Shown in pieces: positions 677 to 62,025 of a stretch of DNA of 64,000 nucleotides. Location of the stretch: assembly GCF_030503595.1 (NCBI RefSeq), contig NZ_CP129966.1, positions 1,984,001 through 2,048,000 of the forward strand. The letters are read 5' to 3'. The translations under genes were made by a program, and so were the position numbers. Positions within the stretch are counted from its first letter, which is position 1; each line of letters begins with the position of its first letter. The notes under the pieces were generated by a model. The model did no database searches, was not told where the DNA came from, and worked only from the letters and a program-made list of their open reading frames with translations. This stretch comes from Corynebacterium sp. P4-C1. Lineage in GTDB: Bacteria > Actinomycetota > Actinomycetes > Mycobacteriales > Mycobacteriaceae.

Positions 677-3600
677 TACTGCACCTCCCCAGTTCGAGTT
701 GTCGAGATTCCGCGTTCAGCTTGGGCACGCTTATCGACGTCTCGCCTTCTCCCCCGCAGCCGCGCCCCCGCCCGCTGCTTCTCCCGGGCCCGCTTGCGCT
801 CCTCGTTCTTCCGCTGCAGGGCACGGGCACGGTCGCGTGCACGCTCCTTGCGCTCGTCCTCCTCGCGGTCGATCTGGCCGCCGAGTGAGGTGAGAATGTG
901 CATGACCAGGCCGACGACGATGGTGTAGACACCGGCGTCGAAAAGTAGTGCGGAAGGAACCGTGACAGGCCCGATGAGCGGAAGTTCCGGCTCGATGTAG
1001 CCGCTGGTCAGCGGCGGGTGGCCGAGGAACATCGGGGCGACGGCGGCCGCGCCGGAGAGCAGCAGGCCGGTGCCGAGAAGTTTCGACGGGTCCACCGGCA
1101 GCGCCTCTTCGAGCTCGTCGCGGCCGCCGGCGAGGTAGCGCAGCGTGAGCGCCAGACCCATCACCAGGCCGCCGGCGAAACCTCCGCCGGGAGCGTTGTG
1201 GCCGGAGAAAAAGAAATACGCGGACAGCAGCACCATCGCGGGGAAGAGGAGACGGGTGACCACGTCGACCATGATCGAGCGGTTCTGGGCCTTCTCGCCT
1301 TCCACACCGGCGGCGAGCCAGCGCGGGCGGCGCGTGGACAGCGTCGGACGGCGTGAATCGCGCGTGAAGGACTGGGTCCGGTAAATCAAACTGGCCACGC
1401 CCGTCGCCGCGATGACCAGCACGCAGATCTCGCCCAGGGTGTCCGCCGCGCGCAGGTCCACGAGCAGCACGTTGACGGTGTTGCGCCCGTGGCCGATCTC
1501 GTAGGCCAGGTCGGGCATGAGCACCGAGATTGGCTCGGCCACCCGCGCTGACATCGCCGCCATGGCCACCACCACGACCGAAAGGCCGGTGCCCACCGAC
1601 AGCCATGCGCGCAGGCGGTTGTCCGCGTCCTTCTTCACATCCACCTCAGTGGGCAGCTTGCGCAGGACCAGCATGAACACGACCATCACGAGCGTCTCCA
1701 CCAGCACTTGCGTCAGCGCCAGATCCGGGGCACCGTGCAGCGCGAAGATCAGCGCCGAAGCGTAGCCGGTGAGCCCCACCAGGATCACAATGGACAAACG
1801 GTTGCGGATCATCGTCGCGGCGACCGCGCAGCTGATCATCACCATCACGGTCATGCCCTGCCACGGAGTGTCCCACAGGATCATGTGGGTGTCGGCCGTC
1901 TCGCCGAACACCAGCGCCGCCAGCGGCACCACCATCAGCACGCTGAAGATCACAGCCAGGTTGATGGTCAACGAACCGCGCTGCGTCGACGCCGTCAAAC
2001 GCAGCGACGCCTGCCGCAGCACCTTCAGCATGTTGTCCCACAGCGCATCCGCGTCGCCCAACGCAGGTCTTTCAAATTGAGCCTTCTTCACCAGTGCGCG
2101 CTGCCAGAACATCACGGCACCGGCCGCGATGATCACCGCACTCAGTGCCAGTGGCACCGTGAAGCCGTGCCACAAGGCCAAGTCCTGGTGCTCCGTGTCC
2201 GGGAAGCGCACGTCGAGGTACTCGTTGATCAGGGATGACAACGGCTGCGGCACCGCACCGAACACCACGGTGAGCAGAACCAGGAGTCCAGGGGGAGCCC
2301 ACTGCAGGAATTCGATGGGTTCCATGTCGCGGACGGCGGGGGACGTGCCGTCGATAAGCTCGGCGCTCATCTCGTCCTCCCGCTTGCGCGCGAACGCGCC
2401 CCACAGGAAACGCAGCGAATACGCCATCGTCAACACGGAACCGAGTATGAAGCCGACGAGCAGAATATTGCGCGGCATGCCCACCAGCAGCTCCTCGTGG
2501 AGCGCGGCCTCGAGCGCCGCTTCCTTAGCCACGAAACCCCACAGCGGTGGAATGCCCGCCATCGACGCCGCCGCGATCGTGGCCAACCCCGCGAGCAGCG
2601 GTTCCTTACGGCCCAGACCGGACAATTCGCGGATATCGCGCGTGCCCGACGTGTGGTCGATCGCGCCCACAATCATGAACAACGCCGCCTTGAAAAGCGA
2701 ATGCGCGAACACCAGCGCCAGCCCCGCCAGCGTCGCCTCGCGCGAACCGACACCCACCACCGCCGTCATGAATCCCAGCTGCGACACCGTGCCGTACGCC
2801 AAAATCAGCTTCAAATCCCGCTGCTTCAACGCCATCCAGCCACCCAGCAGCATCGTGAACACGCCCGCAGGCAACACCACCACGTGCCACATGCTTATCG
2901 ACGCAAAATCCGGCGCCAACCGCCCCACCACATAGATTCCCGCCTTCACCATCGCCGCCGAGTGCAGGTACGCCGACACCGGAGTCGGCGCCGCCATCGC
3001 GCCCGGCAACCAGAAGTGGAATGGCGCCTGCGCAGACTTCGTCAACGCGCCGAGCAGGATCAGGACCACCGCCGCCGTGATCCCCGGAATGTGCTCCAGA
3101 TCCGTCATCCCGGCAATCTGCGAGAGCTTCCACACACCCGTCTGCGTGCCGAAGAGAATGATCCCCACCAGCATCGCCAGCCCACCGAACGTGGTGACCA
3201 GCAGCGCCTGCGTCGCCGCCCTCCTCGACGACGCACGCTCCCCGTAATACGAGACCAGCAGATACGACAGCACCGAGGTGATCTCCCAGAAGATGTACAT
3301 CATCAGCAGGTTGTCGGAGATCACCAGGCCGTACATCGCCATCGCGAACATGGTCAGCTCCGCACCGAAAATGCTCAGCCGCCGCGGATTCGAGTCGAAA
3401 TACCCCCAGCAGTACAACAGCACCAGCGCCCCGACACCGAGAATGATCAGGCCGAACAGCCCCGCATAAGCATCGAGCCGGAACTCGATATTCAGATGCA
3501 TCCCCGGCATCCACGGATACGCCGCCAGGATCTCCCCGCCGTTGTGGAACGTCCCGTTCGCGAACTGGAACAACAGCCAACCAAACCCGGCTCCCGGCAC

Positions 3601-3696
3601 CAGCGCCAACAGGCCGAAAGCAGGCCTACCGAACGAGCGCAGCAGAATCGGCGCCGCCGCTGTCGCTGCGATCAGCGCGAAAAGCAGGGTGATCAC
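676..3696 (-). CDS. mrpA: MrpA, Na+/H+ antiporter subunit A with fused B domain
   Basis: The large, 1006-residue core subunit of the Mrp antiporter. The N-terminal two thirds are NuoL-like, with many membrane helices and the proton-channel stretches L-M-M-Y-I-F-W-E-I-T and K-S-A-Q-A-P-F-H-F-W-L-P-G-A. The C-terminal third carries an MrpB-like part (S-G-H-N-A-P-G-G-G-F-A-G-G), so no separate mrpB is needed before mrpC. I chose the GTG at 3696 because GGGAGG sits about 12 bases upstream and the protein then begins with a hydrophobic helix; an ATG 31 codons further up gives a non-membrane, cysteine-rich leader that looks untranslated. It contains three copies of the dispersed 11-mer (729, 2349, 2893). 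Confidence 0.93.
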   Translation of the reverse strand: MITLLFALIAATAAAPILLRSFGRPAFGLLALVPGAGFGWLLFQFANGTFHNGGEILAAYPWMPGMHLNIEFRLDAYAGLFGLIILGVGALVLLYCWGYFDSNPRRLSIFGAELTMFAMAMYGLVISDNLLMMYIFWEITSVLSYLLVSYYGERASSRRAATQALLVTTFGGLAMLVGIILFGTQTGVWKLSQIAGMTDLEHIPGITAAVVLILLGALTKSAQAPFHFWLPGAMAAPTPVSAYLHSAAMVKAGIYVVGRLAPDFASISMWHVVVLPAGVFTMLLGGWMALKQRDLKLILAYGTVSQLGFMTAVVGVGSREATLAGLALVFAHSLFKAALFMIVGAIDHTSGTRDIRELSGLGRKEPLLAGLATIAAASMAGIPPLWGFVAKEAALEAALHEELLVGMPRNILLVGFILGSVLTMAYSLRFLWGAFARKREDEMSAELIDGTSPAVRDMEPIEFLQWAPPGLLVLLTVVFGAVPQPLSSLINEYLDVRFPDTEHQDLALWHGFTVPLALSAVIIAAGAVMFWQRALVKKAQFERPALGDADALWDNMLKVLRQASLRLTASTQRGSLTINLAVIFSVLMVVPLAALVFGETADTHMILWDTPWQGMTVMVMISCAVAATMIRNRLSIVILVGLTGYASALIFALHGAPDLALTQVLVETLVMVVFMLVLRKLPTEVDVKKDADNRLRAWLSVGTGLSVVVVAMAAMSARVAEPISVLMPDLAYEIGHGRNTVNVLLVDLRAADTLGEICVLVIAATGVASLIYRTQSFTRDSRRPTLSTRRPRWLAAGVEGEKAQNRSIMVDVVTRLLFPAMVLLSAYFFFSGHNAPGGGFAGGLVMGLALTLRYLAGGRDELEEALPVDPSKLLGTGLLLSGAAAVAPMFLGHPPLTSGYIEPELPLIGPVTVPSALLFDAGVYTIVVGLVMHILTSLGGQIDREEDERKERARDRARALQRKNEERKRAREKQRAGARLRGRRRDVDKRAQAERGISTTRTGEVQ

Positions 3697-5151: not shown

Positions 5152-6540
5152 CTAGAGCGTGGTCACCCGCTGCAGGAACTTCGCCTCGGCGACCGCGACG
5201 CGCTCAATGTCGTAGGGGTGGACGGACTCATCGACGGAGTGGATGCCGGCGTTGTTGTCCTCGACGCCGTACATGGCGATCGCGGCGTCCGGGTAGTGCT
5301 TCTGCAGTGTCGCGGTGAGCGGGATGGAGCCGCCGGAACCGACGCTGACCAGGTCGGTGGACACGCCGGCGGGTGCGCCGTCGCTGCTCTCGGTCTCCTT
5401 GTAGGCCTCCTGCAGGCACTCGCCGAGCAGTGCGATGGCGGGTCGGGAGGGATCGGTGGCGAAACCGTGGTTGACGTCGAAGATCTCCACCTCGACCTTG
5501 GCGCCCCAGGGGGTGTGGTCGATGATGTGCTGCTTGAGTGTCTCGGCGGCTGCGGCGGGGTCCATGCCGGCGGGGACACGGAGGTTCAGTTGGGCTTCGG
5601 CGCGCGGGATGATGGCGTTGACGGCTTCGCTGACCGGGGTGGAGGAAAAGCCGATGACGGTGACGGCGGGGCGGGCCCAGACCATGTCGGCGGCGTTTTC
5701 GATGCCGTTGTCGATGTCGCCCATGAGGGATACGCCGTCGAGGACACCGGCGTCCTTGCGGAAGGCGTCGGTGTCGTAGGGCTGGCCGGGCCATGTGGCG
5801 GTCAGGGCGTCGCCGAGGCCGTCGATGGTGGTGCGGCCGGAGTCGTCGCGAAGCGAATCGAGGGTGCGGATGAGTGCGGCGACCGGGTCCGGGGCGGGGC
5901 CGCCGAAGGTGCCGGAGTGGATCGCGCCGCGCAGGGTCTCCACCTTGACCTTGAGCTGGGCGCCGCCGCGCAGGGCGGTGGTGAGGGTCGGGGTGCCCAC
6001 GGCCACGTTGCCGGAGTCGGCGATGAGGATGATGTCGGCGGAGAACAGTCCGGGCTTCTCCTCGATCAGCTTCTCTAGGCCGCCGCCGCCGAGTTCCTCG
6101 GAGCCTTCGACGAGGACGACGAGGTTGGCGTCGGTGCCGCCGGCGTCGTCGATAAGCCTCAATGCCTCAAGGTGCATGGCGACGTTGCCTTTGCAGTCCG
6201 CCGCGCCACGCCCGTACCAGCGGCCGTCGCGTTCGGTGAGGGTGAACGGGTCAGCAGTCCACGCGGACGGGTCACCGGCGGGGACGACGTCGTAGTGGGA
6301 GTAGAGGAGGACGGTCGGTGCGTCGTCGCTGACGTGCTTGCGCGCGATGATGGCGTCGGCGTTGTCGACGGTGGCGTGGCGCTCGACCTCGAGTCCGCGC
6401 TCTGCCAGGGCGTTCGCGACCCAGTCGGCGGCGGCGCCGTGCTGGTCGGCGAGTTCCGGCACCGAGTGGGGCGAGTTGAAGGACACGAGTGCGGAAAGGT
6501 CGTTGAAAATCCGTTCGCGGTTCGGTTCGAAAGTGCTCAT
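5152..6540 (-). CDS. M20-family metallopeptidase (dipeptidase)
   Basis: A cytoplasmic zinc dipeptidase of the M20 family, 462 residues. Metal-site motifs are in the usual order: S-H-Y-D-V-V near residue 82, G-A-A-D-C-K-G-N near 115 (bridging Asp), E-G-S-E-E-L near 148 (catalytic and ligand Glu) and I-A-D-S-G-N in the next block. The dimerisation domain lies in the middle. There is no signal peptide. The substrate is probably a dipeptide or an N-acyl amino acid; the family cannot be narrowed further by eye. It carries one copy of the dispersed 11-mer at 6147. Confidence 0.88.
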   Translation of the reverse strand: MSTFEPNRERIFNDLSALVSFNSPHSVPELADQHGAAADWVANALAERGLEVERHATVDNADAIIARKHVSDDAPTVLLYSHYDVVPAGDPSAWTADPFTLTERDGRWYGRGAADCKGNVAMHLEALRLIDDAGGTDANLVVLVEGSEELGGGGLEKLIEEKPGLFSADIILIADSGNVAVGTPTLTTALRGGAQLKVKVETLRGAIHSGTFGGPAPDPVAALIRTLDSLRDDSGRTTIDGLGDALTATWPGQPYDTDAFRKDAGVLDGVSLMGDIDNGIENAADMVWARPAVTVIGFSSTPVSEAVNAIIPRAEAQLNLRVPAGMDPAAAAETLKQHIIDHTPWGAKVEVEIFDVNHGFATDPSRPAIALLGECLQEAYKETESSDGAPAGVSTDLVSVGSGGSIPLTATLQKHYPDAAIAMYGVEDNNAGIHSVDESVHPYDIERVAVAEAKFLQRVTTL

Positions 6541-6664: not shown

Positions 6665-7087
6665 GTGATGACCCTTTTGATCGTCGCGCTGGTCGTGCAG
6701 ATCGCGTGGCCGCGTGTTCGCGACCTGTTCGACCCCGTCGTGAAGCGGGAGTATGGGCACGTGGTCGCCGTGGACGGGGGAGCGTGGTGGAAGGGCAACG
6801 AAGATCCCATGCAGACCCGGGAGCTCGCGCGCATGCCGTCGGGGGAGGAGCTGCTGTTCGCCTGGGTCGATGGCACGATCGGTCTGCACAGAGACATCAA
6901 GCGCCAGGTTTTTACGCGCGGGGGCTGGCTCATCAATCAGACCGCGCCGAAGATCAACGCCGATCCGCACACGCAGCAGATGGCGATCGCGCAGATGAAG
7001 GCACGCTATTTCCGTTACTGGCTTCCGCAACCCAAGTCCTTAGTGGTCGTGCACCGAAAAAGCGGGAGATATCAAGGCAAGTACTAG
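6665..7087 (+). CDS. Small membrane-anchored protein, unknown
   Basis: This 140-residue protein has one N-terminal membrane helix (L-L-I-V-A-L-V-V-Q-I-A-W) and a polar, basic domain rich in Trp and Arg. I do not recognise a family. The start is uncertain: GTG 6665 or ATG 6668 has no ribosome site, while AAGGGGG at 6615-6620 is ideally placed for a GTG at 6628 in another frame. Reading from 6628 gives about a dozen sensible residues (M-L-E-W-F-S-G-H-M-A-N) before turning into Arg-rich nonsense, so a one-base frameshift near 6665-6670 may separate the true start from the body. Confidence 0.55.
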   Translation: MMTLLIVALVVQIAWPRVRDLFDPVVKREYGHVVAVDGGAWWKGNEDPMQTRELARMPSGEELLFAWVDGTIGLHRDIKRQVFTRGGWLINQTAPKINADPHTQQMAIAQMKARYFRYWLPQPKSLVVVHRKSGRYQGKY

Positions 7088-7160
7088 GAACAACGCTTAT
7101 CGACGGCCGCGTGGCAGCCGAAACTGCTGGCCTACCTTGATCGTTCCGGTTTTCAACGAT

Positions 7161-7211: not shown

Positions 7212-9222
7212 ATGGATAACGGGGCGGAACTGCGTGAGCTTACTCTGCGCGGCATCATCATCGGCGGACTGATCACGCTTGTGTTCACCGCGGCGAACGT
7301 CTACCTGGGGCTCAAGGTGGGCCTGACATTCGCCACTTCCATTCCGGCGGCAGTCATCTCCATGGCTGTGCTGCGCAAGTTCGCCGGGCACAACGTCAAA
7401 GAGAACAATATTGTCTAGACGATCGCGTCGGCTGCGGGAACGCTGTCCGCGATCATCTTCGTCTTGCCGGGCCTGGTGATGATCGGCTACTGGCAGGGCT
7501 TCCCGTTCTGGACCACGGCGCTGGTGTGCGCGCTGGGCGGCATCCTCGGTGTGATGTTCTCGGTGCCGCTGCGCCGCGCGCTGGTCACCGGTTCTGACCT
7601 GCCGTACCCGGAGGGTGTGGCCGCGGCGGAGGTTCTCCGTTGTCGGCGATGGTGACCCGAACAACGAGGAGAACGTCAAGGGCCTGCGGGTCATTGTTGT
7701 CGGTGGCATCGTCTCCGCGTTCTACGGCCTGCTCGCCGCGATGAAGGCGGCCGCCGGCGAGATCTCCGGCACCTTCAAGTTCGGCAAGGGCGCGACCATG
7801 ATGGGAGGCTCGCTCTCCTTGGCCCTGATCGGTGTGGGGCACTTGGTCGGTATGACGGTCGGTATCGCCATGCTCGTCGGCGTGGTCATTTCCTTCTTCG
7901 TTCTTCTACCGTGGCGCACATCTTCACTCGTCGACGGCTCCGTCACGGACCTCTCCGAGATCGTCTCCACCACCTTCGCCTCCGAGATCCGCTTCATCGG
8001 CGTGGGCACCATGGCGGTGGCCGCACTGTGGACGCTGATCAAGATCGCCGGTCCGGTGATCAAGGGCGTGAGCGCCTCGCTGTCCAGCTCCCGCAAGCGG
8101 GCCGCCGGCACAGAAGTGGACGTCACGGAGCGCGACATCCCGTTCCCGATCGTCCTGGGCATCATCTTGGCGTCCATGCTCCCGATCGGCTTCTTGCTGT
8201 GGGACTTCCAGCGCGGCACCGACATTCACGAGCACGCCGTCGGCCTGACCATTATCTCCGTGCTGTTCATTCTGATCGCCGGCCTGGTCATCGCCTCGGT
8301 CTGCGGCTACATGGCAGGCTTGATCGGTGCGTCCAACTCGCCGATCTCGTCGGTGGGCATCATTGCCGTGATCACGTCGGCGCTGCTGATCGCCGCGTTC
8401 ACCGCGGGCACCGATGCCAGCGCGACCTCCCTGGTGGCGTACACGCTGTTCACCGCGGCGATCGTCTTCGGTATCGCAACTATCTCCAACGACAACCTGC
8501 AGGACCTCAAGACCGGTCAGCTTGTCGACGCCACCCCGTGGAAGCAGCAGGTCGCCCTCGTCATCGGTGTCCTCTTCGGTTCCGTCGTCATCCCGCCGGT
8601 CCTGCACCTCATGCTCACCGGCTTCGGCTTCCAGGGGATGGAGGGCGCGGGCCCGGACGCCCTCGCTGCGCCGCAGGCAGCACTGATGTCGTCCGTCGCC
8701 ACCGGCATTTTCGACGACTCCCTGAACTGGAACCTCATCTTCCTCGGTGCCGCCATCGGTACCGTCGTGATCATCATCGACGAGATTCTTTCCGCCACCA
8801 CCGATAAGAAGTACTCCTTGCCGCCGCTGGCAGTGGGCATGGGCATGTACCTGCCTGTCACGGTCACCGTGATGGTTCCGCTGGGCGCCATCATCGGCCA
8901 CTTCTACAACCGCTGGGCATCGCACCAGCGCAACCCGGAATCCGCGATCCGCATGGGCACCCTTGGCGCCACCGGCCTGATCGTGGGTGAGTCGCTGTTC
9001 GGTGTGGTCAACGCCGGCATCATCGCAGCCGCCCAGGGTGAGAGCCCGCTGGAGATTTTCGAGGAGAACGCCTGGACCAGCCTGGCCGGTGTCGTTCTCT
9101 TCACGGCCGCAATCGTGTTCATCTACAGCCGGACTGCCAAGGCTGCCAAGGATCTGCCCATCACTGCGCCAGCCGATGCGGTTGCCGCGGAGAAAATGGC
9201 CGCGGTCGATCGGTCGAAGTGA
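7212..9222 (+). pseudogene. OPT-family oligopeptide transporter, disrupted
   Basis: The reading frames together describe one OPT-superfamily transporter of about 670 residues with many membrane helices (for example L-I-T-L-V-F-T-A-A-N-V-Y-L-G and L-P-Y-P-E-G-V-A-A-A-E-V-L, typical of the family). Two lesions break it. A TAG at 7416-7418 stands where the same frame continues unchanged in sense (V-stop-T-I-A-S-A-A-G-T-L), probably from CAG. One extra base at about 7640-7645 (CGTTGTC instead of CGTGTC) shifts the frame before D-G-D-P-N-N-E-E-N. The long 3' part (from 7615) is intact, but without the N-terminal helices it is unlikely to work. The product probably imported peptides or metal chelates. 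Confidence 0.85.
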
Positions 9223-9348: not shown

Positions 9349-10656
9349 CTAACGCATGATCTGCTGCAGGAACGGAACGGAGTTCTGGGTAGAGGCATTG
9401 ACTGTTCCGTCGTGGTCGGTCGGGTACCAACGCACCTCCACCTTGCTGTTCTTCTCTGCGCCGATGAATTGGCGCAGCCACATGTCCGAGTTCAAGGCCA
9501 TGCCGATGGGGGCCGGCATGTCGACATCCTTGAGTCCGTGGGCGATGAACACCGGTTTGTCGTAACCCGAGACAGGGGTCGCCATGAATTCGCGGATGGC
9601 GCGGTCTGCGCCGGGGACGTCGCTAAGCGGCTTTGTGAAAGCGCGGGTGAGATTGACATTCCGGACCGCGTCTTCGACTTCGTAGTAACAGCTGTGCTGC
9701 GCCGCGGCGATCATGCGCCGGCCTTCGTCGGTGAGGACGGAATCGAAGTCGATGTCTGGGTAAGCTTCGCGCACCGCACCCAGGATGTAAAGGCCGTAGA
9801 CCTGCATTCCGGCGGGCAGCGGAGCTGGCGGGAACGACGGGCCGAGCTTGGTGATGAACTCTTCGATGTAGGCGGGCGCTCCTGTCACCACCGCACCGCG
9901 GTAGTCTAGGCCGAGTTTCTTGCTGAGCTCGGTTGCGCGGTGGGCGACGTGTAGGGCGACACCTCCGCCCTGTGATTGGCCGATGACCGCCCATTTCTTG
10001 TCCAGGACCGGCCCGTTCTTGTCCTTGCTGGCCTTCATTTTGTGCAGGGCGGCCACGGAGTCGACGGACTCAACCGCGGACTGCTTACCGTTGAGGTAGC
10101 TGTGGAGCCCGGGGGTGTCGAGGCCTACGTAGTCCGGCGCGACGATCGCGTATCCGAGGTCGAGCCACCTGCCCAGGTACTCAACGTCCCGTGGAATGCG
10201 CGGGTTGATCGACGGGGCGCATTCATCGCCCAGACCGACTGTTCCGTGGGTCCAAGCGACAACAGGCCAGCCGCCGTCCGGGCGCTCGCCCCGGGGCAGG
10301 AAAACAGCGGCTGTGGCGACGGCGGGCTTTCCCAGTTTGTCTGTGGTCGTGTACGCGATGCGGTACTGCTCGGCGGCAGTGGGGAGCCCGACATTCGGGT
10401 CCAGGGGTACCTCGGCCAGTACGGTGCCGGGCTCGCCTGACGGTTCCACATGGGGCAGGCCACTCCGGTAGAGCGTGCCGTCATACGGGGCAACAGGCCG
10501 CATGGGGTCTCCGTTGTCGACGAAGTGCTGCGCCAGCTGCGATGAAGACTTAGATGACTGCGCGTGGGCTGGAACGGCGGCTACTGCGCCGACCATTCCA
10601 AGCGTGACGACGGCTGCCGCGCAGGCGGTCATCTGAGTTGTGGACCTAAGGGTCAT
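9349..10656 (-). CDS. Secreted lipase/esterase (LIP family)
   Basis: An exported alpha/beta-hydrolase, 435 residues. The start is the ATG at 10656 with GGGAG 9 bases upstream; earlier starts give an unlikely leader. A signal peptide ends near A-V-P-A-H-A. The nucleophile motif G-Q-S-Q-G-G (GxSxG) is present, followed by Asp and a G-x-x-D plus late His region (P-T-D-H-D-G-T). The pattern matches actinobacterial secretory triacylglycerol lipases. A paralogue lies at 44652-46088. Probable role: hydrolysis of host or envelope lipids outside the cell. Confidence 0.85.
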   Translation of the reverse strand: MTLRSTTQMTACAAAVVTLGMVGAVAAVPAHAQSSKSSSQLAQHFVDNGDPMRPVAPYDGTLYRSGLPHVEPSGEPGTVLAEVPLDPNVGLPTAAEQYRIAYTTTDKLGKPAVATAAVFLPRGERPDGGWPVVAWTHGTVGLGDECAPSINPRIPRDVEYLGRWLDLGYAIVAPDYVGLDTPGLHSYLNGKQSAVESVDSVAALHKMKASKDKNGPVLDKKWAVIGQSQGGGVALHVAHRATELSKKLGLDYRGAVVTGAPAYIEEFITKLGPSFPPAPLPAGMQVYGLYILGAVREAYPDIDFDSVLTDEGRRMIAAAQHSCYYEVEDAVRNVNLTRAFTKPLSDVPGADRAIREFMATPVSGYDKPVFIAHGLKDVDMPAPIGMALNSDMWLRQFIGAEKNSKVEVRWYPTDHDGTVNASTQNSVPFLQQIMR

Positions 10657-10883: not shown

Positions 10884-12673
<1,790 letters not shown>

Positions 12674-12695
12674 AAAGCATCTCCGCTTAGCGACG

Positions 12696-12742
12696 CCCCG
12701 AGCCACCCAGCCCGCCCCGCGGCCAGCCTGGCTCGGGGTTTC
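12696..12742 (+). terminator. Terminator of groEL2
   Basis: CCCCGAGCCA (12696-12705) pairs with TGGCTCGGGG (12729-12738), followed by a short T-stretch. Confidence 0.75.
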
Positions 12743-13628: not shown

Positions 13629-13805
13629 GTTTGCCGTGACCATTTCTTCCCGCACAACCTGGAGCTCGCGAATTCTCGGGAATCTCGGCGATGTTCGCAC
13701 AGGGCAAGCGCACGAACACTTGGTTCTAAATGGGAGGGGGCGGCGAACGGGTCGTCGATAAGCGTTGCCCAGCGCTGGCGCGTGTGCGCCGCTAAAATGG
13801 CGGGC

Positions 13806-18585: not shown

Positions 18586-18614
18586 CGCCCCGCGTGCACT
18601 CGGTTGGTGGGGCG
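18586..18614. terminator. Weak stem-loop between convergent sortase-like gene and ppa
   Basis: CGCCCC and GGGGCG frame a 17-base loop between convergent genes. Only 6 pairs and no T-run, so the call is weak. Confidence 0.35.
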
Positions 18615-18648
18615 CGGCGGGGCATCGCTAAGCGGAAAGCGCGGAGGC

Positions 18649-41471: not shown

Positions 41472-41535
41472 TGGGGTGCTCCTTTCGGTTTCCGTCCATC
41501 CTATTTGCGCATTTCGCTTATCGACGTCCCACTCT

Positions 41536-41702: not shown

Positions 41703-44552
<2,850 letters not shown>

Positions 44553-48887: not shown

Positions 48888-49928
48888 CTAGACGATCCGG
48901 CGCAGCCCTTCCACAATGTGGCGCGCCCACAGCGGCGACACGTGCTCGGCCTCGGCGATCTGCTCGGCGTCGGCGACCCGAATCGCGTCAAGGTCGCCGA
49001 ACTGGGCGACGATGCGGTCGATGAGGGATTTCTGCACCCGCGGAATGCGGGACAGCGCCCGGTACCCGCGCGGGGTGACCGCCTCCATGAGGCTCTCCTC
49101 GGTCGCGGGCAGACCCAGAATGCTGGCTAGCGCGGAGGTGCTCAACAGCTCGGAGTCGGGGAGGAGGTCGAGGGAGTCGATGGTGTCGTCGATAAGCGAA
49201 TTGCTCGGCGTGCCCTCCGCGACGAGGTAGTCGCACACCAGCATGGCGATGTCGTGGTAGATGTTGCCGCGCAGCTCGATGAGCTGGAGACGCAGCTGCC
49301 GCGCGTCGGAGCCGAGCTCGAGGATCTGGTCGTCAACGTCGCGGGCGGCGCGCTGCAGGAGCAGCTGGCGCTGAAGGAGGTGCAGGACGTCCTCGACCGT
49401 GGCGTAGCGGTTCATCTCCGCGACGCTGAGGCGCTGGTTCGCCTTATCGACGCGCAAACGGTACTGCTCCACCGTCGCGATCGCCTGGCGGGCGCGCGTC
49501 ATCATCACGCCGGGCTCCTCGATCGCGTGGCGTTTGCCGTCGGCGTAGACCGTGAGGATGCCCATCGACGCCGACACCGACACAACCGGCACTCCCGTGT
49601 GCAGGGCCGTGCGCTCGGCGGCGCGGTGGCGGGTGCCCGTCTCGGAGGTCGGGAACGTCGGCGACGGCACGAGCTGGACGTTGGCGCGGGTGATGCGGGT
49701 GGCGTCGCCAGAAAGAATGACGGCACCGTCCATCTTCGCCAGCTCGCGCAGCAGCGTCGGGGTGAACGGCACGTCGAATTCGATGCCGCCGTCGCAGATT
49801 TCGGCGACCTCGGGGCCGTTGCCGATCACGATGAGTGCGCCTGTGCGGCCGCGTTTGATGCGCTCGAGCCCGTCACGCAGCTCAGTGCCGGGCGCGAGAC
49901 GCTGGAGCGTGTCACGCATGAAGGTCAT
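48888..49928 (-). CDS. disA: DisA, diadenylate cyclase
   Basis: A 346-residue DNA-integrity scanning protein that makes c-di-AMP. The DAC domain has M-D-G-A (67-69) and G-T-R-H-R-A-A-E-R (98-106; usually R-H-R-T-A); a helical linker and a C-terminal helix-hairpin-helix DNA-binding domain follow. Its promoter (TAGACT 10 bases before the ATG) lies at the 3' end of radA, 12 bases away. Dispersed 11-mer at 49187, near-copy CCTTATCGACG at 49442. Confidence 0.95.
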   Translation of the reverse strand: MTFMRDTLQRLAPGTELRDGLERIKRGRTGALIVIGNGPEVAEICDGGIEFDVPFTPTLLRELAKMDGAVILSGDATRITRANVQLVPSPTFPTSETGTRHRAAERTALHTGVPVVSVSASMGILTVYADGKRHAIEEPGVMMTRARQAIATVEQYRLRVDKANQRLSVAEMNRYATVEDVLHLLQRQLLLQRAARDVDDQILELGSDARQLRLQLIELRGNIYHDIAMLVCDYLVAEGTPSNSLIDDTIDSLDLLPDSELLSTSALASILGLPATEESLMEAVTPRGYRALSRIPRVQKSLIDRIVAQFGDLDAIRVADAEQIAEAEHVSPLWARHIVEGLRRIV

Positions 49929-49940: not shown

Positions 49941-51386
49941 CTACTTTCGCTTGTCGACGCACGCGATCGCCTCCCCCAGCGTCCCCACCTCCTCGACCCG
50001 CATGGCTGGGACGTTGGGGGAGCTGTTGGCTCGGCCCGCGGGGACGATCGCGTGTTCGTAACCCAGGCGGGCCGCTTCAGTGAGACGGCGCTCCAGGTTG
50101 GGGACCCGGCGCAACTCGCCAGCGAGGCCGACTTCGCCGATGACGACGGTTTTGGACGGCAGCGGCTGGTTGTGCAGGCTCGACCAGGTCGCAAGGGCCA
50201 CTGCGAGATCCGTGGCGGTTTCTGTGATGCGCATGCCGCCGACTGTGGCGACGTAGGCGTCCTTGTCGTTCGTGCGCTCCCCGCAGCGCGCCTGGAGGAC
50301 CGCGAGGACCATAGGCACCCGGTTAAAGTCGAGGCCCGTCACGACGCGGCGCGGCGACTTGTTCACCGGGTCGACCGTGAGCGCCTGGACCTCCGCGAGA
50401 ATGGGGCGCACACCGTCCATCGCGACAGTGACAGCCGAGCCGTCCGGCGTCTGCCCGCGGTGGGAGAGGAACAAGCCGGAGGGGTCGGGGACCTCCCGGA
50501 TTCCGTCGGCCGTCTGCTCGAAGCAACCGACCTCGTCGGTGGCACCGAAGCGGTTCTTCATGCCGCGAAGCATGCGCAGGCTCGTTTGCCGGTCGCCTTC
50601 GAAGGTGAGGACGACATCGACCAGGTGCTCCAGCACCCGCGGGCCCGCGACGTTGCCGTCCTTGGTCACGTGCCCGACGAGGAGGATCGGAAGGTTGGTC
50701 GTCTTCGCCAGGGTGGTCAGCGCCGCAGTCACCGCGCGCGATTGCGCGACGCCGCCAGCCACGCCCTCGACGCCGGGTGCCTGCATCGTCTGCACCGAGT
50801 CGACGATCAGCAAGCTCGGCTTCACCGCGTCGACGTGGCCGAAGACCACATCCAAATTGGATTCCGAGGCGAGGAAGAGCCTGTCGTTGAGCCCGCCCGT
50901 GCGCTCCGCGCGGCCGCGGACTTGGGCAGCGGATTCCTCCGCGGTGACGTAGAGGGCGGTGCGGCCGGAACCGGACTCGGACTTGGAATCGGAGCCGGAC
51001 TCTGGTCCGGAGACGGAGTCGGCGGAGGCCCAGCGGCTGGCGACCTCGAGAAGCAGCGTGGACTTGCCCACGCCAGGTTCGCCGGAGAGGAGAACCACTG
51101 ACCCGGGAACAACGCCTCCGCCGAGGACGCGGTCGAGCTCGGAAATGCCGGAAGGGCGTCGATAAGCGGCGCTCGCGGCGATCTTCGTGATTGGCTGCGC
51201 GGCGCTCGTGGGCGTCAACCCGCGGGGAGCTGGGCCCGCGGGGCCTACGGAGGAGGCGGCGGCAGAACGCGGCGCGCTAGCCTGCTCCTGGAGAGTGCCC
51301 CACGCGCCGCATTCGGGGCAGCGGCCGAGCCATTTCGGCGACGAGTAGCCGCACTCGGAACACGTGTGGACGGTGCGCTTCTTCAT
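49941..51386 (-). CDS. radA: RadA, DNA repair ATPase
   Basis: A 481-residue RecA-like protein for recombination-intermediate processing. Zinc finger Cys9, Cys12, Cys25 and Cys28 at the N-terminus; Walker A G-E-P-G-V-G-K-S-T; K-N-R-F-G motif; and a Lon-protease-like C-terminal domain. A Ser/Asp/Glu/Gly insert lies near residue 120. radA-disA is the usual neighbouring pair. Dispersed 11-mer at 51157. Confidence 0.96.
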   Translation of the reverse strand: MKKRTVHTCSECGYSSPKWLGRCPECGAWGTLQEQASAPRSAAASSVGPAGPAPRGLTPTSAAQPITKIAASAAYRRPSGISELDRVLGGGVVPGSVVLLSGEPGVGKSTLLLEVASRWASADSVSGPESGSDSKSESGSGRTALYVTAEESAAQVRGRAERTGGLNDRLFLASESNLDVVFGHVDAVKPSLLIVDSVQTMQAPGVEGVAGGVAQSRAVTAALTTLAKTTNLPILLVGHVTKDGNVAGPRVLEHLVDVVLTFEGDRQTSLRMLRGMKNRFGATDEVGCFEQTADGIREVPDPSGLFLSHRGQTPDGSAVTVAMDGVRPILAEVQALTVDPVNKSPRRVVTGLDFNRVPMVLAVLQARCGERTNDKDAYVATVGGMRITETATDLAVALATWSSLHNQPLPSKTVVIGEVGLAGELRRVPNLERRLTEAARLGYEHAIVPAGRANSSPNVPAMRVEEVGTLGEAIACVDKRK

Positions 51387-52190: not shown

Positions 52191-52784
52191 ATGGATTTCA
52201 CAGTCGGAGAAGTGGTCGTCTACCCGCACCACGGTGCGGCCCGTATCGCCGACATTGAAAAGCGTGAGATGGGCGGGGAGGAGCTCGACTTCCTGGTCCT
52301 GAATATCCTGCAGTCCGATCTTTCGGTGCGCGTGCCCGTGAAGAACGCCGAGTTGGTCGGCGTCCGCGATGTCGTGGGGGAGGAGGGCCTGCGCAAGGTC
52401 TTCTCGGTCCTGCGCGAAACGGACGTCGAGGAGGCCGGCAACTGGTCCCGCCGCTACAAGGCCAACCAGGAGCGTTTGGCGTCCGGCGACATCAACAAGG
52501 TCGCTGAGGTTGTGCGCGATCTGTGGCGCCGCGACCAGGGCCGCGGGCTGTCTGCGGGTGAGAAGCGCATGCTGGGCAAGGCCCGCCAGATCCTCGTCGG
52601 CGAGCTCGCGCTCGCGGAGCCGGTGGACGAGAAGAAGGCCGACGGCATGGAGAAGGAGATCCAGGCGGTGATCGCGCGGCATGTGGAGCAGGGGCTCGTC
52701 GAAAAGCCGCGCGAAGATTTCGATCCTGAGGACGATGTCGATCTCGACGACCTCAGCTTCGACGACGATGACAGCGAGGACTAG
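52191..52784 (+). CDS. carD: CarD, RNA polymerase-binding transcription factor
   Basis: A 197-residue regulator that binds RNA polymerase beta and stabilises open complexes at rRNA and other promoters. N-terminal Tudor-like domain ([15 protein letters not shown]) and a helical C-terminal DNA-binding part with R-R-Y-K-A-N and W-R-R-D; an acidic tail (D-D-D-D-S-E-D) is added. The ATG at 52191 has AGAGGAG 6 bases upstream; TAGGAT at 52149-52154 gives a short 5' UTR. The end overlaps ispD by 17 bases. Confidence 0.95.
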
Positions 52785-53526
52785 CTCCCCCGTCGTCGCG
52801 CTTGTTGCCGCCGCCGGGCGTGGGACGCGGCTCGGCGCCGAGATTCCGAAGGCGTACGTGCAGCTGCGCGGCCGGTCACTGTTGGAGCGGTCGGTCACGG
52901 CGATGGAGACGTCCGAGATCGTCGACAGGATCGGCGTGATCGTCAGCCCTGACATGGAGCCTCTTGCGCGGCGGTTGCTGCGCGGCCACGACATCCAGTT
53001 CATTCACGGTGCGGGCGAGCGCGCGGAGTCCGTGTGGGAGGGCCTGAAGGCACTTTCGCTTAACGACGCCACCGTCCTCATCCACGACGCCGCCCGCGCC
53101 CTCACCCCTCCAGGCATGATCGCCCGCGTGGCGCGCGCCGTGCTCGACGGGGCCTCGGCTGTCGTGCCTGTTGTGCCTGTCGCTGACACGATCAAGCGCG
53201 TCACCGCGGACGGCGCGGCTGTCGTGGACACCCCCGATCGCGCCACTTTGCGTGCCGTGCAGACACCTCAGGGCTTCGACTTGGCGACCCTGCGCGCCGC
53301 GAACGAGAAATACTTTGCGCAGGGTGGTGCCGCCGCTTCCGGCTTCACCGCCACCGATGACGCCAGCTTGATGGAATGGTTCGGTGCCCCTGTGACGGCG
53401 GTGCAGGGCGACCCGATGGCGTTCAAGATCACCACCCCGATCGACCTGGTGCTCGCGGAAAGGATCACCGACGAGGCGGAACCGACTGTCTTCGATGTCC
53501 CGGCTTCGATGCCCCCGGGCAGCTAG
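52768..53526 (+). CDS. ispD: IspD, MEP cytidylyltransferase
   Basis: A 252-residue enzyme making CDP-methylerythritol in isoprenoid synthesis. Nucleotide motif [10 protein letters not shown] at the N-terminus, D-A-A-R and the T-P-Q-G-F motif. The start at 52768 lies inside the carD end, implying coupling. A near-copy of the dispersed 11-mer (GCTTAACGACG) is at 53058. Confidence 0.94.
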
Positions 53527-55962: not shown

Positions 55963-56529
55963 ATGAGGAAATTCACCGCGGCGCTGTTGTCGGCTGCTGT
56001 CGTTGCCGGTCTCGCGGCGCCGGCGCAGGCGGCGGCACCGGAATTCGAGCTTCCGCAGCGCTGGAACGACGACCTGGCTCCGGGATCCCACTGCGCAACC
56101 CCGGGGCAGACGGACACGTACGTGACCGCGAAGAGGCGCTGGTTCAAGCAGACCGACGCAGCCAGTGTCGCGAACTTCACGGAGGAAGCCGTCCCGGTAT
56201 CCCAGAACGTGAAGGAAAAGCGGGTGGAAACGCTCGAGGTGTCGGGCACCTTCACTCCGAAGGGCGACCTGGTGAAGAATGTCTCCCGCGCCTACGGCTG
56301 GAAGTACGTGCACCAGGTGACGTGGACGCTAAACCAGAAGGTCGGTCCGTACACACTCGCCCCGAATACCCAGGGGCGCCTCGTCTGGGGCTTTACCATG
56401 CTCGACGGTGACGCCCAGGATGTGCGGTGCGGGGAGGATCAGGTGTGGGGTGCCGTCGGCAAGCAATATGCTTTCACCCTTCCTGAAGCGCGGTATGCGG
56501 AGCTGAAGGTCGAATCTTCGGAACTGTAG
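55963..56529 (+). CDS. Secreted protein C of a three-gene paralogous set
   Basis: A 188-residue exported protein; signal ends near A-Q-A. Same architecture as B: G-S-H-C and D-V-R-C cysteines, a charged strand (N-V-K-E-K-R-V-E-T-L-E-V-S-G-T-F), then V-G-P-Y-T-L-A-P-N, and a C-terminal strand. It starts with no gap after B, so they are one transcript. Function unknown; perhaps a complex of B and C with the larger A. Confidence 0.75.
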   Translation: MRKFTAALLSAAVVAGLAAPAQAAAPEFELPQRWNDDLAPGSHCATPGQTDTYVTAKRRWFKQTDAASVANFTEEAVPVSQNVKEKRVETLEVSGTFTPKGDLVKNVSRAYGWKYVHQVTWTLNQKVGPYTLAPNTQGRLVWGFTMLDGDAQDVRCGEDQVWGAVGKQYAFTLPEARYAELKVESSEL

Positions 56530-56538: not shown

Positions 56539-57993
56539 GTGACTCAACGCATTTTCGATACCGCGACCCGCACACTCCGTGACTTCGAACCTGTCCGCGC
56601 CGGGCATGTCTCGATGTACGTGTGCGGGGCGACGCCGCAATCTTCGCCGCACATCGGGCATCTGCGCTCGGGGGTGGCGTTCGACATTGTGCGCCGCTGG
56701 TTCGCCGCGAACGGCAACGACGTGGCGTTCGTCCGCAACGTGACGGATATCGACGACAAGATTCTCACCAAAGCCGCCGACAACGGCCGCCCGTGGTGGG
56801 AGTGGGTGTCCACGCACGAGCGCGAGTTCACGCGCGCCTACAACACGCTGAATGTGCTGCCGCCAAGCGTGGAGCCGCGTGCGACGGGGTTCGTGACGCA
56901 GATGGTCGAGTACATGCAGCGTCTCATTGACAACGGTTTCGCCTACGCGGCGGACGGGTCGGTGTACTTCGATGTCGCGGCGTGGGTCGCGGCGGACGGG
57001 TCGGATTACGGCTCGCTGTCGGGCAACCGCGTCGAGGAGATGGAGCAGGGCGAGTCCGATGTACGCGGGAAGCGCGGTGCACACGACTTCGCCCTGTGGA
57101 AGGCGGCGAAGCCGGGGGAGCCGAGTTGGCCGACTCCGTGGGGCGACGGCCGCCCGGGCTGGCACCTGGAGTGCTCGGCGATGTCCACGTGGTATCTCGG
57201 CGCGGAGTTCGACATCCACGGCGGCGGGCTCGACCTGCAGTTCCCGCACCACGAGAACGAGCAGGCGCAGTCGCACGCCGCGGGCGACGGTTTCGCGCAC
57301 TACTGGATGCACAACCACTGGGTGACCATGGCTGGCGAGAAGATGTCGAAGTCGCTGGGCAACGTGCTGTCCATCGACAACATGCTCGAGGACGTGCGCC
57401 CGGTGGAGTTGCGCTATTACCTCGGTTCAGCGCACTACCGCAGCGTGCTCGAGTACTCGCCGGCGGCGCTGCAGGAAGCGGCAGTCGCTTATCGACGAAT
57501 CGAGGACCTCATCTCCCGCACCTCCCGCTCCGGGCTCGTCGAACGCGGGACCTGGACCGACGGTTTCGCCGCCGCGATGAACGAGGATTTCGCTGTGCCT
57601 AAAGCCCTGGCCGAGATTCACAACACCGTGCGCGCGGCCAACAAGGCGCTCGCCGACGGAGATGCCGGAACCGCTCGTGAACTCGCCGGCTCGGTGCGCG
57701 CGATGACGGCTGTGCTCGGTGTCGACCCGGTGGAGTGGGCTGACAGGGCAGGCACTGCAGGCGCCGCGGGCGCTGGTGGTGCGGGCGCGGCTGGTGGCGC
57801 CGCCGCCGGTGATTCGGCGGGTGCCGCGGCTGCCCTCGATGTGCTGGTCACTGCGGAGCTGGAGCGCCGCGCGCAGGCCCGCGCCGAGAAAGACTGGGCC
57901 ACCGCCGACGAGGTGCGCGACCGCCTCACTGCCGCGGGCATTGAAGTGACGGACACCGCTGATGGTGCGACGTGGGAGCTGAAGGGAAACTAG
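56539..57993 (+). CDS. cysS: Cysteinyl-tRNA synthetase
   Basis: A 484-residue class I enzyme. HIGH motif as P-H-I-G-H near 38, K-M-S-K-S in the C-terminal half, zinc ligands including W-H-L-E-C-S and H-H-E-N-E. An Ala/Gly stretch near residue 400-430 (A-G-A-A-G-A-G-G-A-G) inserts into the C-terminal helical domain, likely a flexible, variable-length loop. GTG follows TAGACT by 6 bases. Dispersed 11-mer at 57487. Confidence 0.96.
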
Positions 57994-60117: not shown

Positions 60118-60125
60118 GTAGCTGC

Positions 60126-61238
60126 ATGGCGCAAAGACGGGGCACGCTGGCATCGATCGCGGCGGAGGTGGGGGTGTCCCGCACGACGGTGTCGAATGCG
60201 TACAACCACCCGGATCAGTTGTCGCCGGAGCTGCGGGAGCGGATCCTGGCGGTGGCGCGGGCGCGGGGCTACACGGGGCCGGACCCGACGGCGCGGAGCC
60301 TGCGGACGCGCCAGGCGGGGGCCGTCGGGGTGATCTTGACGGAGCATTTGGGCTACGCGTTTGAGGACCAGGCGTCGATTGATTTCCTGGCTGGGCTGTC
60401 GGAGAGCTCTGCGGGGGCGGGCACGGCCCTGACGCTCATTCCGCTCGGCCCGAACCAGGGCACGGGAATCAGCCCGCTCATTGCGGGCGCGCTTGTCGAC
60501 GCCTTCGTCGTCTACTCCGTCCCCCAGTCCGAGCCCCATCTCGCGGCAGTGCGCGCCCGCGGGGTGCCGGTGGTGGTGTGCGATCAGCCGTACCCGTCCG
60601 GCGGCGGCGCGTATGTGGGTATCGACGACGCGGAGGCGGTCAAGCCGGCGGCGCGGGCGCTGGTGGAGGCGGGGCATGAGCGGATCGGGATCGTCGGCAA
60701 GCGGCTGTTCAGCGACGAGTCCCGCGAGGGTGCCGTCACCCCGGCGGAGGTCGCGTCTGCCGACATGCACGTCCAGCGCGGCCGCATCCAGGGGGCGCTG
60801 GAGGTGTTCGCGGAGGCGGGCATCTCAGAGGTGCCCATCGTGACGCGGCACTTCAACGACCACGCCTCAGCAGTCGATGCCGCACGCGCGCTTTTCGATG
60901 CCTCCCCCCACCTCACCGCCGTCCTCTGCACCACCGACTCAATGGCGTTGGGGGTGCTGGACTACTGCGCCCGGGCGGGCCTCCACGTGCCCGGCGATGT
61001 GTCCGTCACGGGTTTCGACGGCGTTGAACAAGCGCTCGCCCGGGGACTCACGACAGTCGTGCAGCCCAACAAGCTCAAAGGGGAGACCGTGGGGAAGGTG
61101 CTCACCGAGCTGACCGAGCTGACCGAGCTGACCGAGCTGACCGAAGCCGCGGGGGAAGCAGAAGCAACGCCGCCGCGCATTCTTCTGCCGACGGAATTCA
61201 GCCGCGGGCAGACTGTCGCGCCGCCGCGAGCTCGGTGA
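60126..61238 (+). CDS. ipsA: LacI-family regulator, IpsA-like
   Basis: A 370-residue regulator with the LacI helix-turn-helix (L-A-S-I-A-A-E-V-G-V-S-R-T-T-V-S-N-A-Y-N-H) and a periplasmic-binding-type sensor domain. By gene order (next to otsB and otsA) it corresponds to IpsA of C. glutamicum, which controls inositol and inositol-lipid formation. Near the end, five 9-base units give L-T-E repeats (61101-61145). The 3' end overlaps convergent otsB by 41 bases. Orthology is from synteny and family; the ligand (inositol) is inferred. Confidence 0.8.
   Translation: MAQRRGTLASIAAEVGVSRTTVSNAYNHPDQLSPELRERILAVARARGYTGPDPTARSLRTRQAGAVGVILTEHLGYAFEDQASIDFLAGLSESSAGAGTALTLIPLGPNQGTGISPLIAGALVDAFVVYSVPQSEPHLAAVRARGVPVVVCDQPYPSGGGAYVGIDDAEAVKPAARALVEAGHERIGIVGKRLFSDESREGAVTPAEVASADMHVQRGRIQGALEVFAEAGISEVPIVTRHFNDHASAVDAARALFDASPHLTAVLCTTDSMALGVLDYCARAGLHVPGDVSVTGFDGVEQALARGLTTVVQPNKLKGETVGKVLTELTELTELTELTEAAGEAEATPPRILLPTEFSRGQTVAPPRAR
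61101..61145 (+). repeat. Tandem 9-bp repeat in ipsA
   Basis: Five units CTSACCGAR in a row (the middle three are identical CTGACCGAG) encode L-T-E five times. It is in frame, so slippage would change protein length by multiples of three residues. Confidence 0.9.
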
Positions 61239-62025
61239 GGAAATCCGCGACCTCGGCGACGGAGCCGAGCTGGTGGCTCGCGGCAGTGGCAGTGGTTGAG
61301 CATGCGGCAGGAGCAGCGGCGCCGGAAGCCTTGGCGGGCCGGACCTTGACGCCGACATCTGGTCCCGCACTCGCGCCCGCGCCCGCACCCGTGTCGAGGA
61401 CTTCGAGCGCGGTCTCGTCGGTTACGTCGTCGCCGGCGAACAAGGTCGCTGCGTACCGGGTCTTCTCGGCGGCGAGCCAGGTGCCCTTCGTGATGTCGAC
61501 GGCGGAGAACTCCAGAACGTTGTGTCCGGGCGTGACGGGTCGGCCGTCCGTGGGGATCTCCCTGGCCCGCGCGAGGAGCGAGGCGGCGGTGTCGGGGTCG
61601 GCGGCGGCGAGTTTCGCCACGTGCAGGACGCGCTGGTAGGGCTTGATTTCGATGAAGGCGGAGGGGTGGGCGTCGATAAGCGGGGCGAGTTCGTCCTGGA
61701 TCCGCGCGAGGTACGCGCGGTCGTCGTCGCTGAGTGTGGGCCCGCCTGAGGCCGGTTCGGCGCCGTGCGAACCGACGAGGGTGACGGGCGGGCCGAGCGG
61801 GCAGACCCGGCGCAGTCCGTCGAGGTGGCGGCCCGAGAGAATGGCGACGCCCGTGCCCGGCAGCCCGGCGAGGGTCTCCAGCGCGGCAAGCGCGCGCGGG
61901 TCGGGGGTGACGGCGTACGCGTCGGTGCCCAGGGGACAGATGGTGCCGTCGAAATCCATGCAGACCAGCAACGTTTCAGCGCCGGCGAGGCGGTCGAGGG
62001 CGGTGCGCGGGTCGGGCAGCGTCAT
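61198..62025 (-). CDS. otsB: Trehalose-6-phosphate phosphatase
   Basis: A 275-residue HAD phosphatase that finishes trehalose synthesis. Motif I M-D-F-D-G-T-I, motif II near L-S-G-R, K in motif III and G-D-D-V-T-D-E-T in motif IV are all seen. The start at 62025 overlaps the preceding lipoprotein stop (ATGA). An Ala/Gly-rich loop near 220-250 (G-A-G-A-G-A-S-A-G) is a likely variable insertion. Dispersed 11-mer at 61671. Confidence 0.95.
   Translation of the reverse strand: MTLPDPRTALDRLAGAETLLVCMDFDGTICPLGTDAYAVTPDPRALAALETLAGLPGTGVAILSGRHLDGLRRVCPLGPPVTLVGSHGAEPASGGPTLSDDDRAYLARIQDELAPLIDAHPSAFIEIKPYQRVLHVAKLAAADPDTAASLLARAREIPTDGRPVTPGHNVLEFSAVDITKGTWLAAEKTRYAATLFAGDDVTDETALEVLDTGAGAGASAGPDVGVKVRPAKASGAAAPAACSTTATAASHQLGSVAEVADFLTELAAARQSARG

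Follow-up and report, generated by a model that had tools for sequence, protein, structure and literature searches.

To our knowledge, uptake sequences are known solely from two Gram-negative families. In Pasteurellaceae, the uptake signal sequence (USS) consists of a core with a flanking preference, reaches a high copy number, and has an AT-rich flank. Here, a stretch of 64,000 nucleotides from Corynebacterium sp. P4-C1 (contig NZ_CP129966.1, positions 1,984,001 to 2,048,000; this whole stretch is called the window below) was analysed for a dispersed 11-base word, GCTTATCGACG, which its own sequence identifies as non-palindromic. It was found that this word is the commonest form of a longer element, a GCTTNNCGAYG core followed on one side by a C-rich tract, which recurs over the genome and in most of the Corynebacterium genomes surveyed. 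Judging from its sequence properties, the element is likely to be a DNA uptake sequence that serves natural transformation, bipartite and dialect-bearing, in a Gram-positive genus.

The element resembles the DNA uptake sequence (DUS) of Neisseriaceae, which the accessible part of PMC3630211 describes as a short word with thousands of copies and species dialects. Additionally, according to an excerpt of PMC2346458, DUS favours one orientation in reading frames, as do the sites of this element in called genes, and the minor pilin ComP is given as the DUS receptor in the available portions of PMC3868556 and PMC12061091. In contrast to DUS, the element has another sequence, belongs to another phylum and adds a 30-bp strand-asymmetric C tract; its likely machine, as far as gene content suggests, is a Tad pilus, and it has no excess of the inverted pairs that an excerpt of PMC12616744 reports as frequent with DUS and USS. 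Moreover, DUS dialects are said in the part of PMC3630211 at hand to follow phylogeny, whereas in Corynebacterium the dialect differs within one related pair of genomes (G006 and G004). The USS side of PMC12616744, in the same excerpt, offers a further likeness, namely dialect types with a conserved inner core. Unlike that of USS, the flank of the Corynebacterium element rises in G+C from 63% to about 68-73%, with C replacing G on one strand. Chi sites, which are read by RecBCD or AddAB, are also dispersed non-palindromic oligomers, and sites of the Chi type are biased to one replication strand; the element differs from them in having no replication-strand bias, in joining 11 bases to a 30-bp tract, and in being at background in genomes where the nuclease-domain family is retained. 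Among actinobacteria, tadA1, tadA2 and comEA of Micrococcus luteus are named as competence-related in PMC6667448, and the term 'uptake sequence' is absent from its text. Tad and comEA genes are also present in the P4-C1 genome.

A degenerate core with a one-sided C-rich tract

The exact word GCTTATCGACG occurs 22 times in the window (10 plus, 12 minus), as a first-pass annotation of the stretch had counted, and 100 dinucleotide-preserving shuffles gave a mean of 0.04 and at most 1 copy. No other 11-mer of the window is as frequent; the runner-up, with 10 copies, overlaps it. In the complete genome (2.31 Mb), 493 copies were found (245 forward, 248 reverse) versus 2 (1 + 1) for the reversed-word control, which is far from a near-random count. 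The generic form GCTTNNCGAYG has 1399 copies in this genome against 98 for its control, on average about one per 1.7 kb, with 54 sites in the window; a 504-kb sample of the genome holds 294, of which 274 are of the CGACG form. The sites are spread fairly evenly (variance/mean 0.78 over 50 ten-kb windows) and, when leading and lagging arms were assigned from GC skew, 139 sites of the sample fell on the leading and 128 on the lagging strand (P 0.54). Inverted close pairs showed no excess, and spacings below 100 bp of either kind numbered 16 in the own-genome sample versus 17.2 by chance, in keeping with the first-pass statement that no paired copies form terminators. Paired terminators were accordingly rejected, as were palindromic or paired dispersed repeats such as highly iterated palindromes (HIP1) and repetitive extragenic palindromic (REP) sequences, since the word is non-palindromic and close pairs are not in excess.

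The full element comprises the GCTT-NN-CGAYG core and a 3' tract of about 30 bp that is rich in C and poor in G, about 41 bp in all. Its anatomy was resolved in a 464-kb sample made of 20 spread own-genome stretches plus the window, which holds 90 exact copies. In this sample, position 5 of the core is degenerate (GCTTNTCGACG: A 90, G 33, C 19, T 17), position 6 is also degenerate, to a lesser degree, and other one-mismatch words are few save for T to G at position 3 (15 cases); AT is the favoured central dinucleotide in the own genome, and the base preceding the CGACG form is G in 5% of cases in the 504-kb sample. On the 3' side of exact copies, from +11 to +40, C makes up 49-56% and G 17-19%, with A+T falling from about 37% to 27-32%, whereas the 30 bases upstream have 31-37% C and 28-30% G and thus no tract; random places have about 32% of each. 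It had been claimed that the copies lack flank conservation, which this 3'-only tract shows to be wrong. In the own genome, the C excess is small by +41 to +50; G004 and C. urinipleomorphum are among the genomes whose tract extends to +50. The tract is weaker where position 5 of the core is not A, and the control ATCGACG without GCTT is followed by a weak C excess (C-G skew 0.08-0.15 over +11..+40), which perhaps stems from decayed copies. Of 12 samples from motif-bearing genomes of different dialects, 11 had the tract, two of these samples having only 7 sites each. A relic of a transposable repeat was rejected as an explanation, given that outside the core word only base composition is common to the copies.

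Genes were called crudely, the calls covering 72% of the 464 kb. The 159 GCTTNTCGACG sites of this sample are divided into 93 sense, 32 antisense, 33 outside called genes and 1 partial, and the 22 exact window copies into 11, 5 and 6 of the first three classes, so that copies are not confined to a few protein motifs with preserved frame. The coding copies had been regarded as neutral with respect to frame, a view that has to be given up: 84 of the 93 sense sites lie in the frame Leu-Ile/Val/Leu/Phe-Asp, and 22 of the 32 antisense sites in the frame Val-Asp-Lys. Since sense, antisense and uncalled sites all have the C-rich tract, selection appears to act on DNA. The first-pass remark that copies may force rare codons, for which it had named CGA, ATA and TTA, holds for CTT, which accounts for 7.6% of Leu codons and of which 132 of the 778 occurrences in called genes lie inside the element. 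Additionally, 10 of the 16 host genes it had named were checked, and the assignments agreed for the mrpA-like gene, the M20 peptidase, ftsH, folK, carbonic anhydrase, the RadA-like ATPase, cysS, disA, ptsI and the trehalose-phosphatase-like gene, the last one just below the curated cut-off.

Distribution, site turnover and dialects

The genus was surveyed in 201 Corynebacterium genomes, the own genome and 200 drawn from the genus, by comparing the GCTTNNCGAYG count with that of the control. The count was fourfold the control or more in 151 of them, which have 153 to 2032 copies with a median of 1150; 8 were intermediate (two to four times control) and 42 were at background. Summed over the 151 motif-rich genomes, the strands are balanced (86,178 forward, 86,306 reverse). 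C. urinipleomorphum has 1189 copies (control 90), C. lipophiloflavum 1327 (102), C. hylobatis 940 (76) and a Corynebacterium metagenome-assembled genome 1524 (78). In 120 genomes from 49 other genera of the order, the form is at or near background, as in Mycobacterium parascrofulaceum (317, control 342), Gordonia rhizosphera (289, 283) and Tsukamurella conjunctivitidis (275, 213). An excess over the reversed control of up to about twofold was seen above all in family f9, for example 270 versus 138 in G244. No hidden dialect was recognised in 120 kb each of the background genomes G176, G063, G205, G106, G014, G187 and G010, nor in 80 kb of the background genome G172. As a separate observation, the palindrome TCATCGATGA is strongly over-represented in G014 (L033-L036) and G006 (L037-L040), with 10 and 8 strand-counts per 80 kb versus 0.14-0.16 expected, and it has no flank asymmetry.

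The element is scarce in mobile DNA. Around prophage portal genes, 2 copies were found versus 17.9 expected in 10 loci of 4 kb each, which come from 8 of 80 motif-bearing genomes, whereas 13 control loci (Tad and comEC, 20 kb each) hold 137 copies versus 131.8 expected. In the own genome, 2 of the 50 ten-kb windows are empty; both are GC-poor (56% and 59%) and carry a Mutator-type transposase gene, the match in L020 being weak and partial and the copy in L018 being adjoined by an rve integrase gene. The motif-poor, GC-poor stretch L018:8569-18322 also encodes a P450 fused to a reductase and an AMP-binding enzyme besides its transposase and integrase genes, and L020:11302-19346, of the same character, encodes a FecCD-type ABC transporter and a siderophore-interacting protein next to the transposase remnant.

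The nearest named relative by DisA among the matches listed is C. urinipleomorphum (89%). In 18 kb aligned with this species at 84% identity, 14 of the 35 GCTTNTCGACG sites of the window align, of which 10 are unchanged, 1 has another central dinucleotide and 3 are lost, and the core is more conserved (0.935) than its flanks (0.847). With G173, at 75% identity, 11 of the 35 align, 3 being unchanged, 1 having another dinucleotide and 7 being lost; because of these 7 losses among 11 aligned sites, with core identity (0.752) close to that of the flanks (0.739), it was concluded that sites turn over between species. G061 is a genome of the same species; its 14 aligned GCTTNTCGACG sites are all unchanged (5 unaligned), as are 21 of the generic form (2 changed, 10 unaligned), and the pair has little power, given that the flanks are 99% identical. 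A comparison with G008 via guessed synteny aligned 452 bp.

Dialects were assessed in 80 motif-bearing genomes chosen from the 151. The CGATG form predominates in 11 (at least 79% of sites) and the CGACG form in 69 (CGATG at 17% or less), and among the genomes listed the preferred central dinucleotide differs as well. The related species G006 (T dialect) and G004 (C dialect), which are 79% identical over 35 kb, differ in dialect in a concerted manner. From G006 to G004, an alignment was obtained for 19 of 53 sites. The invariant core bases are intact in 16; 15 of those change from T to C, and the central dinucleotide stays the same in 13 of the 15. Control CGATG words outside the motif were kept in 84 cases, became CGACG in 17 and something else in 106 (Fisher P 2e-9). 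In the reverse direction, 24 of 72 sites align; the core is kept in 15 that change from C to T and in 1 that keeps T, and 8 are lost. Since the retained sites switched in concert, it looks as if many sites followed one change of a trans-acting reader, as far as aligned sequences can tell.

Candidate uptake machinery and competing explanations

If the element is an uptake sequence, its history may be pictured as follows. A DNA receptor, probably on the Tad (type IV-like) pilus or at ComEA, would bind double-stranded environmental DNA bearing the element, its target being GCTTNNCGAYG with a C-rich strand of about 30 bp behind it. The DNA would be pulled inward by the pilus, ComEA and ComEC would pass one strand across the membrane, and DprA and RecA would integrate it into the chromosome by recombination. 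As fragments that carry a good copy would be preferred, mutations towards the motif would spread by transformation and those that lose it would be repaired, and copies would build up on both strands at tolerated places of the core genome, a molecular drive as modelled for uptake in the accessible part of PMC1939737. When the preference of the receptor changed, the thousand-odd sites would follow, giving rise to dialects. A long near-invariant word on both strands, scarce in mobile DNA, with dialects and a concerted switch, is what uptake-driven drive would be expected to leave. We infer that the site is read by the uptake machinery and that DNA bearing it is taken up preferentially, and the receptors proposed above are candidates. 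Of the four candidates that the first-pass annotation had put forward, a DNA-uptake-like sequence is the one best supported, by enrichment in most genomes of the genus, dialects, the switch in one pair, portal depletion, the lack of replication-strand bias in the sample and the presence of competence genes.

As regards these genes, Pfam matches identified in the own genome ComEC, a ComEA that has helix-hairpin-helix domains and weakly matches SLBB, and a Tad locus encoding TadA (T2SSE), a T2SSF protein and a pilin-like DUF4244 protein; two small genes of this locus, which have no Pfam match, were called TadE-like and TadF-like candidates by position and look. ComEC was detected in 201 of 201 genomes, DprA in 71 of 71 and T2SSE/TadA in 78 of 80. 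The T2SSE score was at least 159.6 bits in all 39 motif-bearing genomes with a match (1 of 40 had none). In a TadA tree of 40 genomes (17 with the motif, 23 without), 14 motif-less genomes stand apart, with support 100/100, from 26 mixed ones (17 with, 9 without), and the motif state needs at least seven changes, five of them forced by starred branches. A DEAD-helicase tree, which kept 30 of the 40 genomes (6 without a match, 4 short), needs 6 changes, 4 of them forced, and places the motif-less group elsewhere, its deep branches being weak; both trees were rooted at the midpoint only. The TadA tree is compatible with one origin in the mixed group and repeated loss, a point that the helicase tree does not settle. 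In ComEA, some columns track the dialect, but the 7 sequences compared are uninformative.

Some side observations concern the same genes. The comEC match G219:C1:543012-543797 has an in-frame stop, the sole one among the matches listed, and this genome has an intermediate motif count (161 versus control 69), as if the motif decays once competence is lost. The background genome G205 has the weakest best DprA match of the 71 (1.4e-37, the rest at 3e-56 or better) and a partial TadE match of 47 residues. In five Tad loci of motif-less genomes (L173-L177), the own TadB and TadC both match a single, longer open frame, and the C-terminus of the Flp-like pilin differs. G136, the genome whose sites lack the tract, also has three portal-gene loci and is possibly decaying.

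The asymmetry of the element also recalls a Chi-like site, at which a helicase-nuclease of the AdnAB/RecBCD type, engaged in repairing a double-strand break, would recognise the word together with the G-rich complement of its tract and change over to recombination. The element is non-palindromic, enriched in the core genome and strand-asymmetric, and PDDEXK_1 nuclease-domain proteins occur in the genus, many in open frames of about 1000-1200 residues; this explanation is nevertheless unlikely, given the balance of leading and lagging sites reported above, by which a polarity like that of Chi or of FtsK-orienting polar sequences (KOPS) was rejected, and given that PF12705 was present in all 71 genomes searched, motif-bearing or not, so that genomes lacking the motif still have the enzyme family. 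The fairly even spacing and the depletion in mobile DNA would suit sites that are scattered over the chromosome and bound by a nucleoid, replication or segregation protein. This is quite unlikely, as the sampled sites have no replication-strand bias, 42 of 201 genomes of a single genus are at background, and a single-base dialect change at more than 1000 sites per genome would, for a housekeeping role, need selection at each of them. In general, a nucleoid, segregation or recombination site is the less likely reading because the strands are balanced and dialects switch.

The element might also be a self mark of a defence system that degrades or silences unmarked DNA, for which its depletion around prophage portal genes and in the two transposase-bearing regions and its patchiness across species could be adduced. 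At one copy per 1.7 kb, however, most short fragments would be unmarked, which makes such a role very unlikely, and we know of no defence system with a 41-bp bipartite mark of this kind. That the element arises as a side effect of protein motifs, codon bias or mutation pressure, as the single L-[IVLF]-D frame of 84 of 93 called sense copies might suggest, is barely credible: antisense and uncalled sites have the same 3' tract, CTT is used despite its low share of Leu codons, and the other core bases are kept at the dialect switch, on which grounds a protein-motif or codon artefact was rejected. A relic of restriction/modification avoidance was likewise rejected, because the word is over-represented.

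Several points weigh against DNA uptake as the explanation. The uptake preference itself is predicted from sequence, and ComEC, DprA and Tad genes are also found in motif-less genomes, so that they do not discriminate. Of 39 background genomes with a match (1 of 40 had none), 10 also reached a T2SSE score of at least 160 bits, TadA type is confounded with phylogeny, and causation does not follow from its correlation with the motif. In TadE and TadF, no gap-free column tracking the dialect was found among 17 genomes. The portal-locus sample amounts to 10 loci in 8 genomes, three of them from G136 and two below the family cut-off; the concerted switch is known from 16 sites in a single species pair; the cores of G136 lack the tract; and the inverted pairs often seen with DUS and USS are lacking (16 versus 17.2 expected spacings below 100 bp). 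In the open-licence literature, no report of natural transformation of a Corynebacterium was found, although an earlier report elsewhere is possible, and 'natural competence' refers to other bacteria in the accessible passages of Corynebacterium papers. For their part, searches of the same literature returned only papers with unrelated titles for the exact core word, no uptake sequence from a third family, and no description of such a tag for a Gram-positive bacterium, which may have been reported earlier elsewhere.

Sites of the window and significance for the genus

The 54 window sites were located by a core scan for GCTTNNCGAYG, and C and G were counted in the 30 tract bases; each core is given below with the extent of core plus tract and these counts. 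On the plus strand, exact cores with a 3' C-rich tract lie at 729-739 (729..769, C19 G5), 2893-2903 (2893..2933, C15 G4), 17780-17790 (17780..17820, C20 G7), 27189-27199 (27189..27229, C15 G6), 32375-32385 (32375..32415, C20 G2), 39187-39197 (39187..39227, C16 G9), 41516-41526 (41516..41556, C13 G4), 47450-47460 (47450..47490, C16 G7) and 57487-57497 (57487..57527, C14 G5), and one with a weak tract at 7095-7105 (7095..7135, C11 G10). On the minus strand, exact cores with a tract lie at 2349-2359 (2319..2359, C14 G8), 6147-6157 (6117..6157, C14 G9), 13753-13763 (13723..13763, C15 G4), 17627-17637 (17597..17637, C14 G7), 21540-21550 (21510..21550, C19 G5), 28549-28559 (28519..28559, C12 G7), 30426-30436 (30396..30436, C18 G3), 35109-35119 (35079..35119, C13 G6), 40871-40881 (40841..40881, C21 G3), 49187-49197 (49157..49197, C17 G3), 51157-51167 (51127..51167, C13 G7) and 61671-61681 (61641..61681, C15 G3).

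Variant cores followed by a tract on the plus strand are GCTTGTCGACG at 8520-8530 (8520..8560, C13 G9), 49949-49959 (49949..49989, C18 G5), 60491-60501 (60491..60531, C15 G5) and 62572-62582 (62572..62612, C15 G3); GCTTAGCGACG at 12685-12695 (12685..12725, C19 G7); GCTTATCGATG at 15019-15029 (15019..15059, C16 G6); GCTTTACGACG at 18265-18275 (18265..18305, C14 G4); GCTTCTCGACG at 22329-22339 (22329..22369, C15 G5); GCTTGCCGACG at 22682-22692 (22682..22722, C18 G5) and, with a weak tract, at 36165-36175 (36165..36205, C11 G10); GCTTGTCGATG at 27348-27358 (27348..27388, C18 G6); GCTTTTCGACG at 30285-30295 (30285..30325, C15 G6) and 47536-47546 (47536..47576, C13 G7); GCTTCACGACG at 33451-33461 (33451..33491, C19 G5); GCTTTCCGACG at 44021-44031 (44021..44061, C16 G7); GCTTAACGACG at 53058-53068 (53058..53098, C17 G6); and GCTTTTCGATG at 60890-60900 (60890..60930, C19 G3). 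Those on the minus strand are GCTTCGCGACG at 5844-5854 (5814..5854, C15 G7); GCTTAGCGACG at 9618-9628 (9588..9628, C14 G8); GCTTTACGACG at 11897-11907 (11867..11907, C14 G6); GCTTAGCGATG at 18623-18633 (18593..18633, C17 G7); GCTTCACGACG at 32074-32084 (32044..32084, C14 G8); GCTTGTCGACG at 47046-47056 (47016..47056, C17 G6); GCTTTTCGACG at 52697-52707 (52667..52707, C15 G6); GCTTGCCGACG at 56454-56464 (56424..56464, C18 G4) and 60692-60702 (60662..60702, C17 G4); GCTTCTCGACG at 62974-62984 (62944..62984, C12 G8); and GCTTGACGACG at 63550-63560 (63520..63560, C10 G5). Variant cores without a C-rich tract, which may be chance occurrences, are GCTTCTCGACG at 32465-32475 (32465..32505, C10 G12) and GCTTTTCGACG at 43628-43638 (43628..43668, C7 G7) on the plus strand, and GCTTCACGACG at 6736-6746 (6706..6746, C10 G11) and GCTTCTCGACG at 46473-46483 (46443..46483, C9 G12) on the minus strand. 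A short tandem array with a 9-bp period (ACCGAGCTG) occupies 61104-61144.

On balance, we lean towards the element belonging to an independently evolved self-DNA uptake system, present in most of the genus and the first outside Neisseriaceae and Pasteurellaceae, in which the 11-bp core would be read base by base and the 30-bp one-strand C tract by repeated contact, for instance by a pilus fibre or a single-strand reader, with genome-wide dialect flips between related species and several losses. If this is true, sequence-selective DNA uptake would have evolved in Gram-positives too, as a third case and in an actinobacterial genus with mycolic acids. Most Corynebacterium species would then be naturally transformable, now or recently, and the dialect pair would represent a natural experiment on the co-evolution of a receptor and a thousand sites.

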